From Nocardioides jiangsuensis (GTDB lineage: Bacteria; Actinomycetota; Actinomycetes; Propionibacteriales; Nocardioidaceae), in the NCBI RefSeq assembly GCF_019679455.1, contig NZ_JAIEZQ010000002.1, forward strand, positions 1,240,001-1,304,000: a stretch of 64,000 nucleotides of DNA, in the 5' to 3' direction. The notes below the pieces were generated by a model, which saw nothing but the letters and a program-made list of their open reading frames with translations, ran no database searches and had not been told where the DNA came from. Below are positions 9,168-13,863 of the stretch, in pieces; positions within the stretch are counted from its first letter, which is position 1, and the number at the start of each line of letters is the position of its first letter. Position numbers and translations under genes: made by a program.

Positions 9168-10211
9168 ATGACGACAGAGGCAGCATCGACGTCGATTCCC
9201 CAGCAGAGCCGTCGCGGTGAGGTCCCGGAGGCCGCCGTACGACTCGGGCTGTACCGGACCATGGTGCTGAGCCGCACCTACGAGGAGGCGATCCTCCGGG
9301 AGTACCACGCGGACAAGGGGCCGGGCTTCGACATCGGCAAGGGGCTGGTCCCCGGCGAGATGCACCTGTCCGCCGGGCAGGAGCCCGTCGCGGCCGGTGT
9401 CTGCGCGCACCTGACCACCGACGACGCGGTGACCGCGACCCACCGGCCGCACCACCTCGCGGTCGCGCACGGCGTCGACCTGCGGAAGATGACCGCGGAG
9501 ATCTTCGGACGCGAGACCGGCCTCGGTCGGGGCCGCGGCGGCCACATGCACCTGTTCGACCCCGCGACCCACTTCTCGTGCTCGGGCATCATCGCGGAGG
9601 GGTACCCGCCGGCGCTCGGCCAGGCGTTCGCCTTCCAGCGCCGGGGGACCGACCGGATCGCGGTGGCCGTGACCGGCGAGGGCGCGGCCAACCAGGGCGC
9701 CTTCCACGAGTCGCTGAACCTCGCGGCGCGGTGGTCGCTGCCCGTCGTGTTCGTGGTCGAGGACAACGACTGGGGCATCTCCGTCCCGCGCGACGCCGCC
9801 ACCGCGATCGGCTCGAACGCGGACCGCGCGGCGGCGTACGGCATCCCGGGCGAGCGGGTCGAGAACGACGTGGAGGCGGTGTACGACGCGGCGAGGCGGG
9901 CCGTCGCACGCGCCCGCGCCGGCGACGGACCCTCGCTGATCGAGGTCCACACGCTACGGATGTGGGGCCACTTCGAGGGCGACGCCCAGGGCTACCGGAC
10001 GGACCTCGCGGACGTGGCGGAGCGGGACCCGATCCCGCGCTACGAGGAGGTCCTGCGCAAGGCCGGGGTGCTCGACGACGAGAAGGTGGCGCAGGCCAAG
10101 GCCGACGCGAGCAGGCGCGTCGAGGACGCGGTCGAGTTCGCCAGGAGCAGCGCGATCCCCGACCCCGCCGACGCCACCGCGTACGTCTTCACCGAAGGAG
10201 CCCTCCGATGA
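9168..10211 (+). CDS. Thiamine-diphosphate-dependent 2-oxo-acid/acetoin dehydrogenase E1 component, alpha subunit
   Basis: 347 residues. The ThDP-binding motif is seen as GEGAANQGAFHESLN followed by VVEDNDWGIS (the G-D/E-G ... N-N type signature). THRPHHLAVAHG and RGRGGHMHLF are typical of the acetoin/pyruvate/branched-chain E1-alpha group. It decarboxylates a 2-oxo acid or cleaves acetoin and passes the acyl group to a lipoyl domain. A TTTGGAGGACGC leader gives a strong Shine-Dalgarno. It overlaps the beta-subunit gene by 4 bp. The substrate is not certain; the sequence style is closest to AcoA/PdhA-like proteins. Confidence 0.88.
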   Translation: MTTEAASTSIPQQSRRGEVPEAAVRLGLYRTMVLSRTYEEAILREYHADKGPGFDIGKGLVPGEMHLSAGQEPVAAGVCAHLTTDDAVTATHRPHHLAVAHGVDLRKMTAEIFGRETGLGRGRGGHMHLFDPATHFSCSGIIAEGYPPALGQAFAFQRRGTDRIAVAVTGEGAANQGAFHESLNLAARWSLPVVFVVEDNDWGISVPRDAATAIGSNADRAAAYGIPGERVENDVEAVYDAARRAVARARAGDGPSLIEVHTLRMWGHFEGDAQGYRTDLADVAERDPIPRYEEVLRKAGVLDDEKVAQAKADASRRVEDAVEFARSSAIPDPADATAYVFTEGALR

Positions 10212-11239
10212 CGATCACCGAAGCGCCCCAGGCCACCCGCAGGCTCACCACCTCCAAGGCGATGGTCGAGGCCATCGCGCAGGAGATGGAGCGTGACCCG
10301 TCGGTCTTCTACCTGGGCGAGGACGTCGGCGCGTACGGCGGCATCTTCAGCTCCACCACCGGGCTGCTCGAGCGGTTCGGGCCCCAACGGATCATCGACA
10401 CCCCGATCTCGGAGACCGCCTTCATCGGCCTGGGCATCGGCGCCGCGGTGGAGGGGATGCGTCCGATCGTCGAGGTGATGTTCACCGACTTCATGGGCGT
10501 GTGCCTGGACCAGATCTACAACCACATGGCGAAGATCCACTTCGAGTCCGGGGGCAACGTGAAGGTGCCCATGGTGCTCACCATGGCGGCCGGCGGCGGC
10601 TACTCCGACGGCGCGCAGCACTCCCAGTGCCTGTGGGGCACCTTCGCCCACCTGCCCGGGATGAAGGTCGTCGTGCCCAGCACCCCGGCCGACGCCAAGG
10701 GGCTGATGACCTCGGCGATCCGCGACGACAACCCGGTCGTCTACATCTTCCACAAGGGCGTGATGGGACTGCCCTGGATGGTGAAGAACCCCCGCAGCAT
10801 CGACGAGGTCCCCGACGGCGAGCACACGGTGCCCATCGGCGAGGCCCGGGTGGCCCGGGAGGGCAGCGACGTCACGGTGGTCACCCTGTCCCTGTCGGTG
10901 CACCACGCCCTCGACGTCGCCGAGTCCCTCGCGCCGCAGGGGATCGACGTGGAGGTGGTCGACCTGCGCAGCCTGGTCCCGCTGGACCGCGACGCGATCG
11001 TCGCCTCGGTGGCCAAGACCGGCCGGCTCGTCGTCGTCGACGAGGACTACCTGTCGTTCGGCGTCTCGGCGGAGGTCGTCGCGAGCGTCACCGACCGTGA
11101 CCCCACGCTGCTGCGCGTGCCTCCGCAGCGGATCGCGGTGCCCGACGTCCCGATCCCGTACGCACACGACCTGGAGCACGCCGTACTCCCGCGGCACGAC
11201 CGCATCGAGCGGGCCGTCCGTACGGCGATGGGCAGATGA
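10208..11239 (+). CDS. 2-oxo-acid/acetoin dehydrogenase E1 component, beta subunit
   Basis: 343 residues from ATG at the end of the alpha gene. It has the transketolase pyrimidine-binding domain (YLGEDVGAYGGIF, DTPISETAFIGLGIGAA, EVMFTDFM) and the C-terminal transketolase domain (VEVVDLRSLVPLDRDAI, VDEDYLSFGVSAEV). It forms the alpha2-beta2 E1 heterotetramer with the preceding product. The stop overlaps the start of the lipoyl-domain gene, so E1-alpha, E1-beta and the carrier should be made in fixed ratio. Confidence 0.9.
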   Translation: MTITEAPQATRRLTTSKAMVEAIAQEMERDPSVFYLGEDVGAYGGIFSSTTGLLERFGPQRIIDTPISETAFIGLGIGAAVEGMRPIVEVMFTDFMGVCLDQIYNHMAKIHFESGGNVKVPMVLTMAAGGGYSDGAQHSQCLWGTFAHLPGMKVVVPSTPADAKGLMTSAIRDDNPVVYIFHKGVMGLPWMVKNPRSIDEVPDGEHTVPIGEARVAREGSDVTVVTLSLSVHHALDVAESLAPQGIDVEVVDLRSLVPLDRDAIVASVAKTGRLVVVDEDYLSFGVSAEVVASVTDRDPTLLRVPPQRIAVPDVPIPYAHDLEHAVLPRHDRIERAVRTAMGR

Positions 11240-11469
11240 CCGACGTCCTCTTCCCGGCGCTCTCGGAGGAGAACCCGGACGCGGAGGGGGTCCTCGCCAC
11301 CTGGTTCGTGACCGAGGGCTCCGCCGTCACCGCCGACCAGCTTCTCGCGGAGGTGCAGGTCGACAAGGTGTCCGCGGAGGTGCTCGCGCCCTCGGCCGGG
11401 GTGGTGCACCTGCTCGTCGAGGAGGAGGCCGCGGTCCCGCAGGGGACACCCGTCGCGCGCATCGAGTGA
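11236..11469 (+). CDS. Stand-alone lipoyl (biotinyl/lipoyl-carrier) domain protein
   Basis: 77 residues, i.e. one lipoyl domain and nothing else. The lipoylation site is Lys44 in EVQVDKVSAEV, in the middle of the domain between two beta sheets. ATG overlaps the E1-beta stop. In a normal complex the lipoyl domain is fused to the E2 acyltransferase, but the E2 peripheral-subunit-binding and catalytic domains are absent here and no E2 gene follows. The domain must either serve an E2 encoded elsewhere or pass the acyl/redox group to another partner. Confidence 0.88.
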   Translation: MTDVLFPALSEENPDAEGVLATWFVTEGSAVTADQLLAEVQVDKVSAEVLAPSAGVVHLLVEEEAAVPQGTPVARIE

Positions 11470-11532: not shown

Positions 11533-11796
11533 ATGACCACGACCCCGAACGAGCCGGTGAAGGACGAGGACATCGAGACCATCGGCGCCCCGCCGGCCGC
11601 CGGCGAGATGATCGGTGACCAGGACGCCGACGGCACCGACACCGCCGACGCGGACGGGACCGACGGCGACAGCACCGACGGCGACAGCACGGACGTCACG
11701 GACGGCGACAGCACGGACGCGTCCGACGGTGACAGCACCGATGTCACGGACGGTGACAGCACCGACGGCGGCGACGCCGACGGCACCGACGCCTGA
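11533..11796 (+). CDS. Short acidic Asp/Gly/Ser/Thr repeat peptide, candidate substrate (precursor) of the JmjC oxygenase
   Basis: 87 residues, ATG with a GAGAGGAGC Shine-Dalgarno. Residues 1-29 are of ordinary composition (MTTTPNEPVKDEDIETIGAP then PAAGEMIGD). From residue 30 to the end the chain contains almost only Asp, Gly, Thr, Ser, Ala and Val, with five DGDSTD-type blocks flanked by DADGTD blocks. It has no signal peptide or transmembrane segment. This two-part leader-plus-repeat layout next to a peptide/protein hydroxylase (11810) and an Fe-S protein (12934) resembles a ribosomally made, post-translationally modified peptide. No named family is recognised. It could instead be a simple acidic low-complexity protein. 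Confidence 0.75.
   Translation: MTTTPNEPVKDEDIETIGAPPAAGEMIGDQDADGTDTADADGTDGDSTDGDSTDVTDGDSTDASDGDSTDVTDGDSTDGGDADGTDA
11695..11766 (+). repeat. Three 24-bp tandem repeats within the acidic peptide gene
   Basis: Units at 11695-11718, 11719-11742 and 11743-11766 each encode [V/A][T/S]DGDSTD. Shorter copies of the GGCGACAGCAC core lie just upstream. Third-position differences (GGC/GGT, ACG/ACC, GAC/GAT) show that the units have diverged silently while the peptide stayed the same. Confidence 0.88.
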
Positions 11797-11809
11797 GCCA
11801 GCCGACGCC

Positions 11810-12937
11810 GTGGACGCACTCGAGCTGCTCAGCGGCGACGCCCAGACCTTCCGCGCGAAGGTCTGGGCGTCGCACGTGCACATCCATTACACGGACCCGG
11901 CCGACCTGGTCGGGCTGCTGTCCCTCGACGACGTCGACCACCTGCTGACCAGCGTCGCGCTGCGGACGCCGGCGCTGCGCGTGGTGAAGCACGGCTCGGT
12001 CCTGCCGTCGAGCCGGTTCACCCGGTCGGCGACGATGGCCGGGTCACCGCTCACCGGGCTCGTCGACGCCCGCAAGGTGCTGGACCACTTCGACGACGGC
12101 GCGACCGTCGTCCTCCAGGGGCTGCACCGCTACTGGCCACCGCTCACGCGGCTGGTCCGCGAGCTGGAGCTGGCGCTCGGCCACCCGTGCCAGGCCAACG
12201 CCTACCTCACCCCGCCCGGGTCGCAGGGGTTCGCGCGGCACAGCGACACCCACGACGTCTTCGTGTTCCAGACCCACGGCCGCAAGCAGTGGGAGATCGT
12301 CGAGGGCGGCGAGGAGCGAGAGGTGTTGCTCGAGCCGGGGCTGAGCATGTACCTGCCCACCGGCACCCCGCACTCCGCGCGCAGCCAGGAGCAGACCTCG
12401 CTGCACGTCACGGTCGGGATCAACCGGCTCACCTGGCGCCAGGTGCTGCGGTCGGTCACCGACCGGGTGCTCGCCGACGAGAGGTACGACGCGCCGCTGC
12501 CGGCGGGCTACCTCGACGACCCCGCCGTCCTCGCGGAGCAGCTCGCCGAGCAGCTCGCGTCGTACGCGGACGGGATGCGTTCCGTGGACGCCGCCGTCGT
12601 CGCCGACGAGCGGGCCGCGGCGTTCCTGCGGGAGCGCACGCCCGCCCTGCGCGGAGGGCTGACCGACCGGGTCGGGCTCGACGCCCTGGGTGACGAGACG
12701 CTGCTGGAGCGGCGCCCGACGGCCGCGTGCGTGCTCAGGCCGGGGGAGGAGGGGTTCGAGGTGCTCCTCGGCGACCGGGCGCTGCGGATGCCGGCGCGCC
12801 TGCGGGAGCCGATGACGTTCGTCCGTGACCACCCCACGCTGCGCGTACGCGATCTCGCGCCGTGGCTCGACGAGCAGAGCAGGCTGGTGCTGGTCCGCCG
12901 GCTGGTGCGCGAGGGTCTGCTCCGGATCGCCGGGTGA
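11810..12937 (+). CDS. JmjC/cupin-4 family 2-oxoglutarate/Fe(II) oxygenase (ribosomal-oxygenase-like)
   Basis: 375 residues from a GTG 13 bp after the acidic peptide gene. No clear Shine-Dalgarno is present, so coupling to the upstream gene is likely. The JmjC core holds the Fe(II) facial triad: H144 and D146 in FARHSDTHDVFVFQ and H188 in PTGTPHSA. GRKQWEIV follows, as in the YcfD/ROXA/MINA53/NO66 group. The C-terminal ~80 residues (RALRMPARLREPMTFVRD to WLDEQSRLVLVRRLVREGLL) look like the family's winged-helix domain. Known members hydroxylate Arg or His of ribosomal proteins. Here the adjacent repeat peptide is a candidate substrate (inference). The start is uncertain by a few codons. Confidence 0.85.
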   Translation: MDALELLSGDAQTFRAKVWASHVHIHYTDPADLVGLLSLDDVDHLLTSVALRTPALRVVKHGSVLPSSRFTRSATMAGSPLTGLVDARKVLDHFDDGATVVLQGLHRYWPPLTRLVRELELALGHPCQANAYLTPPGSQGFARHSDTHDVFVFQTHGRKQWEIVEGGEEREVLLEPGLSMYLPTGTPHSARSQEQTSLHVTVGINRLTWRQVLRSVTDRVLADERYDAPLPAGYLDDPAVLAEQLAEQLASYADGMRSVDAAVVADERAAAFLRERTPALRGGLTDRVGLDALGDETLLERRPTAACVLRPGEEGFEVLLGDRALRMPARLREPMTFVRDHPTLRVRDLAPWLDEQSRLVLVRRLVREGLLRIAG

Positions 12938-13863
12938 GCGGCACCGCCGCGGGCTCCGGTGGCCTGTCCGGCGCCTTCCGGTGCGCGGCGGCGAGCGAGG
13001 TGGCCGCCGAGCCGCTGGCCGGCACCGCGTCCACGGTCCGGGCGTTCCTCCTGGTGGAGGCGCCCGGGCCGTGGGGCGTCGACGCCGTGCGCGACAGCCG
13101 GCTCCCCGACGACGTGAAGGCGCGGCTGGGCGAGCTGGAGTCGCGGCACCGGGTCCGGCCGCTGCTGGTCCGGCGCCACGGCGGCGCGCGTCCGGCGACG
13201 ACGCGGGTGTTCGCCGCCTACGCCGACCCCGCACGGCCCTGGGTGGGGACCACCGAGCTCGCCGACGTCCGCGACCTCCTCGACCTCGAGCTGGTCGGGC
13301 TCGGCGAGGGGCGGTCGCCGGGACTGGCGCCGTACGACGAGCCGCTGTTCCTCGTGTGCACCCACGGGCGGCACGACGCCTGCTGCGCGGAGCGCGGGCG
13401 GCCGCTGTGCGCGGCGATGGGGGAGGTCGCCCCGGAGGCCACCTGGGAGGTCTCCCACATCGGGGGCGACCGGTTCGCGGCCAACCTGCTCGTGCTCCCG
13501 CACGGCCTCTACTACGGCCGGCTCGGGCCGGCGGACGCGGCGGGCCTCGTGCAGGCGCACCTCGCCGGCCGGCTCGACCTCGAGCACCTGCGGGGGAGGT
13601 CGTCGTACCCGTTCGCGGTGCAGGCCGCGGAGGTGTACCTGCGGCGCCGGCTCGACGTGACGACGGTGGAGCCGCTGGCGGTGCGGAGCCGTGCTCGCGA
13701 CGGCGCCGAGACGCGAGTGGTCTTCGCGGTGGAGGGGGAGGACTGGGAAGTTGTCGTGCACACCTCACGCGGGGCTCCGCGGCAGCTCACGTGCCGCGCG
13801 GGGTCGCCGTCGGCCGGACTGGCCCACACGCTGGTCAGCCTCGGACGCACTGCGGCACGCTGA
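12934..13863 (+). CDS. Sucrase/ferredoxin-like (thioredoxin-like [2Fe-2S]) protein
   Basis: 309 residues from a GTG overlapping the oxygenase stop by 4 bp. The signature HGRHDACCAERGRPLCAAM carries the clustered cysteines of the sucrase/ferredoxin-like family, and the second half holds SHIGGDRFAANLLVLPHGLYYG, including the conserved HxGGxR/H-type Fe-S ligand region. Such proteins bind a thioredoxin-like [2Fe-2S] cluster and probably carry electrons. The tight coupling suggests it supplies electrons to, or works beside, the JmjC oxygenase. An unrelated redox role cannot be excluded. Confidence 0.82.
   Translation: MSGTAAGSGGLSGAFRCAAASEVAAEPLAGTASTVRAFLLVEAPGPWGVDAVRDSRLPDDVKARLGELESRHRVRPLLVRRHGGARPATTRVFAAYADPARPWVGTTELADVRDLLDLELVGLGEGRSPGLAPYDEPLFLVCTHGRHDACCAERGRPLCAAMGEVAPEATWEVSHIGGDRFAANLLVLPHGLYYGRLGPADAAGLVQAHLAGRLDLEHLRGRSSYPFAVQAAEVYLRRRLDVTTVEPLAVRSRARDGAETRVVFAVEGEDWEVVVHTSRGAPRQLTCRAGSPSAGLAHTLVSLGRTAAR

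Follow-up and report, generated by a model that had tools for sequence, protein, structure and literature searches.

A JmjC oxygenase paired with acidic repeat peptides in actinobacteria: a candidate cassette for peptide hydroxylation

Gene cassette in Nocardioides jiangsuensis

The window analysed here is a stretch of 64,000 nucleotides from Nocardioides jiangsuensis (contig NZ_JAIEZQ010000002.1, positions 1,240,001 to 1,304,000). Three adjacent genes on its plus strand encode an acidic repeat peptide, an Fe(II)/2-oxoglutarate (2OG) oxygenase of the JmjC_2 or ribosomal-oxygenase type and a Suc_Fer-like protein. They probably form a cassette in the manner of ribosomally synthesised and post-translationally modified peptides (RiPPs), in which the oxygenase would bind the leader of the peptide and beta-hydroxylate aspartate residues of the core.

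The peptide gene (11533..11796) is an open reading frame (ORF) of 87 amino acids with GAGAGGAG immediately 5' of it. The peptide has 25 Asp, 4 Glu, one Lys and no Cys, and the GC content at the third codon position is 95%. The leader, residues 1–18 (MTTTPNEPVKDEDIETIG, 11533..11586), contains the conserved motif DEDIET at residues 11–16. The core comprises residues 30–87 (11620..11793), with Asp repeats in DADGTD and DGDSTD blocks and 22 Asp among 58 residues. Pfam and NCBIfam offered no family for the window peptide (E up to 1), and a second copy was not detected in the genome (E up to 10). An NCBIfam daptide match to one of seven peptides was judged a chance match, with 15.8 bits against a cut-off of 25.

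The oxygenase gene (11810..12937, 375 amino acids) has a GTG start 13 bp 3' of the peptide stop. Its product matches Pfam JmjC_2 (PF08007, 1.7e-19, 70 bits against a cut-off of 22). The GTG start of the Suc_Fer-like gene (12934..13863) overlaps the oxygenase stop by 4 bp (GTGA); the protein matches PF06999 (1.1e-20, 75 bits against a cut-off of 34.9). These gene positions, the 13-bp gap and the 4-bp overlap had been proposed in an earlier model-made note (the sequence-only reading); ORF scan and Pfam agree with it. A contig scan with the oxygenase gave at least one locus; L031, 70% identical, is among the matches listed.

Distribution of the peptide and oxygenase pair

Two surveys were performed. 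Among 149 genomes of the window's family, 79 have a JmjC match, and loci were fetched from 70 of them. Of 396 genomes from the phylum, 58 match the oxygenase profile at 1e-20 and all 58 provided loci. After removal of three duplicates, 121 family loci were retained by a profile score above 285 bits, a set that also includes the broken locus L056 and the divergent L124. Eleven generic JmjC_2 loci from six genomes (122–262 bits) served as controls.

Each of the 116 loci that could be assessed has an acidic, Asp-rich ORF immediately 5' of the oxygenase. The end of this ORF falls at most 127 bp ahead of the start of the oxygenase match and at most 20 bp past it. The sequence-only reading would have failed if homologous oxygenases generally lacked the peptide; the peptide ORF is present throughout. 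In the phylum survey, the oxygenase family occurs in 52 of the 396 genomes; the acidic ORF accompanies it in 50, and the loci of the other two lack upstream DNA. A strict composition filter is passed by 112 of the 116 family loci and by none of the 11 generic ones. The same type of filter for such tails was applied to 8,449 stop-to-stop segments of 50–400 amino acids in 904 kb, i.e., the fetched loci and the window. It retained 106 segments: 104 directly upstream of a JmjC gene, one that is the window's own copy as a separate source and one antisense elsewhere. This sample is centred on JmjC genes; therefore, the fairer controls are the 112 of 116 against 0 of 11 and the missing second peptide match in the genome.

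A profile of 11 peptides matches 50 of the 149 family genomes. Each of these 50 also belongs to the 79 oxygenase-bearing genomes, and the peptide matches listed are all adjacent to an oxygenase gene. No orphan peptide was found by this profile in the 149 genomes, which holds only for peptides resembling that of the window because the profile misses 29 of the 79 oxygenase genomes. Phage records contained no match to the oxygenase. The pairing of peptide and oxygenase is thus real and widespread. The cassettes are mostly single-copy per genome and lie in differing neighbourhoods.

Two side observations concern individual loci. In L056 (G034:C16), the oxygenase frame is broken into several pieces, and the leader of the peptide is still readable; a sequencing error or a pseudogene may be the cause. 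Control loci L130 and L132 each have an ORF of 45 amino acids in the interval from about 160 to 22 bp before the generic JmjC_2 match. The two ORFs have the same tail, GRSDGND, and an internal AARTR/AARAR stretch in common; perhaps they represent another JmjC-linked precursor family.

Leader and core of the precursor peptides

The leader motif D-[DE]-[DE]-[IM]-x-T is present in 78 of the 113 loci with a full-length oxygenase, usually after L-x. A looser pattern, extended once the sequences had been read to take in DDDLxT, TDADMET, SEQDIES, SDADIS and similar forms, covers 98 of the 113 loci across the phylum, whose cores diverge meanwhile. The pattern starts 6–10 residues past the start codon in 96 of 112 peptides, with the EGPADGG of a leaderless clade included in the pattern set. 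For 18 leader codons in seven close relatives, the ratio of nonsynonymous to synonymous polymorphism (pN/pS) is 0.35; judged from these codons, the leader looks to be under purifying selection. A conserved leader and a variable core beside a modifying enzyme are the layout of a RiPP. The prediction that the first 29 or so residues are conserved stood in part. The leader is conserved, and repeat number and sequence vary; the conserved part is shorter, about 10–18 residues with a DDDIxT-like end.

The loose pattern is missing in 15 of the 113 loci, and the strict form does not occur in any of them; in L074, a decayed NDDDTMGT is left. These loci (L057–L062, L064–L067, L070, L071, L074, L075 and L080) group as a single clade in a rapidly built tree of the catalytic domain (Shimodaira–Hasegawa-like approximate likelihood ratio test 96, with a long-branch warning). 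All except L080 retain repeats of the GPADGG/DGGADGG type beside the oxygenase gene.

The repeat is open in other reading frames as well, which might point to an accident of GC-rich repetitive DNA. The conserved leader with its pN/pS value, the position in 116 loci, the composition-filter counts and the missing strict-filter ORF in the 11 generic JmjC_2 loci speak against a chance origin. It was rejected, and its probability is negligible.

The cores differ between clades: DADGTDGDSTD in the window's clade, and EGPADGGAEGTPGVQDGGADGG, SADGTDQGVPGGTYGPRDA, ADADASDADA and EDDENLDAPGEHSQDTGDE in others. In a test for four-residue repeats against shuffled sequences, 98 of the 116 peptides are repetitive. 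The core composition was determined for the 112 cores with an assignable start. Asp accounts for 27.6% of the residues, and the spacing between Asp residues is mostly 3 or 2. Only Asp, Gly and Ala are found in every core. Thr is missing from two and Ser from eight; Cys, Phe and Trp do not occur. Tyr is absent from 109 and Lys from 100 cores, and 109 cores are free of any aromatic residue (F, W, Y). Asp is the sole reactive side chain common to all 112 cores and hence, judged by composition, a better target for hydroxylation than Ser or Thr.

Other JmjC chemistry has to be considered at this point: oxidation of Ser/Thr or Gly/Ala, cross-linking or cleavage of the backbone. Precedents are described in the consulted part of one article: an alpha-ketoglutarate-dependent enzyme cross-links Cys to Tyr in a different RiPP (Xia et al. 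2025, as cited in PMC12636437), and HExxH enzymes cleave backbones (PMC12636437). The lack of Cys in all cores and of aromatics in 109 of the 112 offers little for such a cross-link. C-3 hydroxylation is the known activity of enzymes of the ribosomal-oxygenase type. Together, these points make a different chemistry rather doubtful, and hydroxylation of Asp is moderately favoured as the main change.

Structure of the oxygenase

The AlphaFold model of the oxygenase has a mean predicted local distance difference test (pLDDT) score of 90.8. Its best PDB matches are the ribosomal oxygenases NO66, MINA53 and YcfD, which superimpose over the whole length (VIA Z 27, 25 and 19). Like these JmjC_2/cupin_4 (PF08007) enzymes, it combines a C-terminal winged helix with an iron site of HxD and a further His. 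In an alignment of 17 sequences, the HxD motif (H144 and D146, 12239..12247), H188 at the PxGxxH position (12371..12373) and H199 (12404–12406) are invariant. By comparison with YcfD, we take H144, D146 and H188 to be the iron ligands, with H188 as the probable third. The JmjC oxygenase with an intact HxD...H, named in the sequence-only reading, is borne out by the Pfam match, the invariant residues and the double-stranded beta-helix in the structure.

These similarities allow another view: the oxygenase may modify a ribosomal or other cellular protein, with the peptide as a docking partner or inhibitor. NO66, MINA53 and YcfD act on ribosomal proteins according to the titles of their PDB entries, and they are the best full-length structural matches (VIA Z 18–27). 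However, the identity to NO66 is only about 24%, and the present group is preceded by its own acidic peptide in every assessable locus. From clade to clade, the leader is retained and the cores are exchanged entirely, which fits the cores of a substrate better than the fixed surface of an inhibitor. A cellular protein as the substrate is unlikely, and the peptide itself is very likely what the oxygenase acts on.

The C-terminal 97 residues (279–375, 12644..12934) are the proposed leader-binding part. Modelled alone, they have a pLDDT of 88.8 and consist of strands followed by three helices. The three-stranded sheet with three helices is the fold of a RiPP recognition element (RRE). In Foldseek, the first matches beyond ribosomal oxygenases are the PbtF RRE, PqqD and ThcOx (E 0.015–0.05, probability 0.95–0.99). 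The template modelling scores are 0.62/0.64 for PqqD and 0.55/0.60 for the PbtF RRE, both with a probability of 0.99. In VIA, the RRE-bearing proteins MccB, McbB, PbtF, TbiB1, PqqD and TruD are next after the ribosomal oxygenases with Z 5.8–7.5 (6.5–7.5 without TruD). The sequence of the domain gave nothing convincing against the PDB (best E 0.44). The sequence-only reading had not noticed this domain.

All 15 oxygenases of the leaderless clade have a degenerate C-terminal domain without the helix LDxxSRLVLxRRLVREGLL. The intact-helix pattern also missed ten leader-bearing loci; on reading, a similar helix is kept there. The joint loss of leader and intact C-terminal domain is suggestive of a leader-binding role for this domain.

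The Suc_Fer-like protein

The Suc_Fer-like protein presumably has a thioredoxin fold with a [2Fe-2S] cluster, as expected from its family. Six residues, C17, C142, C150, C151, H175 and C287, are conserved in all 108 aligned homologues (numbering shifted by 13 relative to the alignment columns). With the PF06999 domain, these Cys and His residues identify the protein as Suc_Fer-like.

Downstream DNA sufficed for an assessment in 116 loci; 108 of them have the gene within 200 bp downstream, compared with none of the 11 controls. A whole-genome search in the eight genomes without an adjacent gene detected a homologue elsewhere in four, one of them beside a second copy of the oxygenase. The other four genomes, of which one is 81% complete, had no homologue in this search. 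The Suc_Fer-like protein had been presented as a member of the cassette. It is a usual one and not an essential part: peptide and oxygenase are the core of the cassette, and Suc_Fer is accessory.

At a site separate from the cassette, the genome of the window encodes a second Suc_Fer-like paralogue with 39% identity (L141, G000:C1:439228-440115).

Proposed function

The JmjC enzyme would capture the acidic leader motif of the peptide with its RRE-like C-terminal domain. Its Fe(II)/2OG active site could then proceed along the unstructured tail and beta-hydroxylate Asp residues, which are mostly 2–3 residues apart and followed by Gly, Ala, Ser or Thr. Where Suc_Fer is present, its most plausible part would be to keep the enzyme iron reduced or to donate electrons, an assignment that we make tentatively. 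No dedicated protease or widely shared exporter is located nearby; a hydroxylated polyanion that remains intracellular is therefore the probable product. A function of such a polyanion as a metal ligand is a weak suggestion. Taken further, a single JmjC–RRE fusion enzyme might convert multicore peptides throughout the phylum into intracellular poly-beta-hydroxyaspartate ligands for iron or calcium. This would be a metal buffer inside the cell and not a secreted antibiotic or siderophore; we regard it as a speculation with a low probability.

Several observations weigh against the RiPP-like interpretation. Most concern the C-terminal domain. Its best VIA matches are the winged helices of ribosomal oxygenases (Z 10–11), and unrelated chains score like RREs: the Rv2067c methyltransferase 7.8, KICSTOR 6.7 and GdmN 6.6. 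The Foldseek E-values for RREs are weak (0.015 and 0.047; none listed at 0.001 or better), and a Pfam search of the domain with E up to 10 gave no match, PqqD included. With weak RRE matches, better winged helices and equal scores for unrelated chains, the fold is no proof of a leader-binding role. Leader loss and C-terminal degeneration are a single event, and a test on independent pairs yields no statistics. On the side of the peptides, 18 of the 116 fail the simple repeat test. Several of them (L034, L078, L082–L085 and L126) have two or three long copies, to which the test is blind; L013, L100, L115, L118 and L120 are short and weakly repetitive, and the L080 peptide has no repeats. One control (L135) passes the loose acidity criterion by which all 116 upstream ORFs were counted, with D+G+E of at least 0.33 and D of at least 0.12 over the C-terminal 45 residues. 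In 8 of the 116 loci no Suc_Fer gene is adjacent, and no protease recurs across clades in the flanks of 1.5–5 kb of 118 loci.

Relation to known systems

RiPPs with a JmjC hydroxylase are known already. BipG and PbsQ are JmjC hydroxylases acting on ornithine in biphenomycin-type RiPPs, according to the portions of the reports consulted (PMC12257519, PMC12707348). In these portions, BipG, BpmG and PbsQ share with the window oxygenase that a JmjC or related cupin enzyme hydroxylates a ribosomal precursor peptide. The biphenomycin clusters are larger, with a multinuclear non-haem iron-dependent oxidative enzyme (MNIO), an arginase, a B12-dependent radical S-adenosylmethionine enzyme and a TldD protease, and the target is ornithine. 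In contrast, the window has one oxygenase and a multi-Asp peptide. The fusion of an RRE-like fold to JmjC PF08007, as in the window oxygenase, was described for fish and algae, with bacterial homologues of about 30% identity in RiPP-like contexts (Bregman et al. 2025, PMC12710340). The part of that article compared, by description only, presents no precursor, leader motif or class, whereas the present family has precursors throughout the phylum and a leader motif.

The product residue proposed for the window peptide is the same as in cinnamycin, where 3-hydroxy-Asp is formed by a 2OG enzyme. This cinnamycin-type hydroxylation of Asp is catalysed by CinX. The window cassette differs by many Asp residues per peptide and the lack of a lanthipeptide synthetase.

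The precursor class was not described in the open literature searched, six peptide strings included; subscription papers were mostly outside the scope of this search. New are the single JmjC enzyme with an RRE-like domain, the multi-Asp cores, a leader motif of their own and the optional Suc_Fer. A system of two or three genes is common in actinobacteria, with JmjC matches in 79 of 149 family genomes and the oxygenase family in 52 of 396 phylum genomes. In the ribosomal-oxygenase fold, the C-terminal winged helix is similar to leader-binding domains, and the system suggests that some enzymes with this fold may serve dedicated peptides. If true, sequences dense in hydroxy-aspartate would join the known peptide chemistry. 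The leader motif can be used for further genome mining.

Neighbouring genes and distant relatives

The flanks were compared all against all, with 1,190 frames in 118 loci and frames overlapping the oxygenase omitted. Beyond the cassette and antisense frames, clusters of at least four loci comprise an AAA/regulator-like frame (by reading) in 11 loci and other frames in 4–7 loci, many from one clade. A major facilitator superfamily (MFS) transporter frame lies downstream of the cassette in four of the 118 loci (L033, L052, L053 and L091); Pfam confirmed MFS_3/MFS_1 in L033 and L091. It is a possible exporter in some lineages. The absence of a recognisable peptidase or exporter gene, noted in the sequence-only reading for the window, extends to the family: none is widely conserved in these flanks. 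Protease and export functions could be encoded elsewhere in the genome.

The upstream regions of 112 loci were searched for IdeR-, Zur-, Rex-, CRP-, SigR-, OxyR- and HrcA-like strings and for dyads of five bases. No site was clearly beyond shuffled sequence, and thus there is no clue to iron control.

Several distant relatives have richer neighbourhoods. A homologue with 33% identity on a Streptomyces clavuligerus plasmid (L143:3769-5164, NZ_CP065235.1) is preceded by an annotated hypothetical peptide of 48 amino acids, MDDKKTSLEPDEIEVI...IADNDPSDPPIAIADPDPFDPVI, with an LxxDEIE-like leader and Asp–Pro-rich repeats. Downstream are an S9 peptidase gene on the opposite strand and an ABC transporter gene. 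Judged from its gene content, the layout of this locus is RiPP-like. On the Streptomyces plasmids of L144, L145 and L146, homologues matched over about half of the protein lie in clusters that contain two cupin (JmjC-like) genes and an M13 metallopeptidase gene. Carbamoyltransferase and DinB genes are present in two of these three clusters and an MFS transporter in one; the clusters resemble those of RiPPs. A distant homologue in Pseudanabaena is located near a lanthipeptide synthetase gene. The neighbourhoods of the distant relatives fit a link of this enzyme group to RiPPs.

The neighbourhoods bear on a further explanation, in which the JmjC enzyme hydroxylates a stable acidic repeat protein and the modified protein itself functions, as an ion buffer or a disordered stress protein, with no leader removal and no natural product. 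Eukaryotic hydroxylases modify repeat proteins in this way. Such a protein would agree with mostly single-copy cassettes in differing neighbourhoods and with flanks in which no protease or exporter recurs widely. The leader with varying cores is, however, typical of RiPPs; a peptidase and an ABC transporter are encoded close to the S. clavuligerus relative, other distant JmjC_2 relatives are clustered with M13 or S9 peptidases, and four loci have the MFS frame downstream. Hydroxylation in place is a possibility to be taken seriously, with a lower probability than the RiPP-like cassette.

Upstream of the cassette, the window contains two ORFs that, on reading, resemble the two E1 subunits (alpha and beta) of a 2-oxoacid dehydrogenase, followed by an ORF of 77 amino acids which is a lone lipoyl domain (Biotin_lipoyl; all within 9168-11469).

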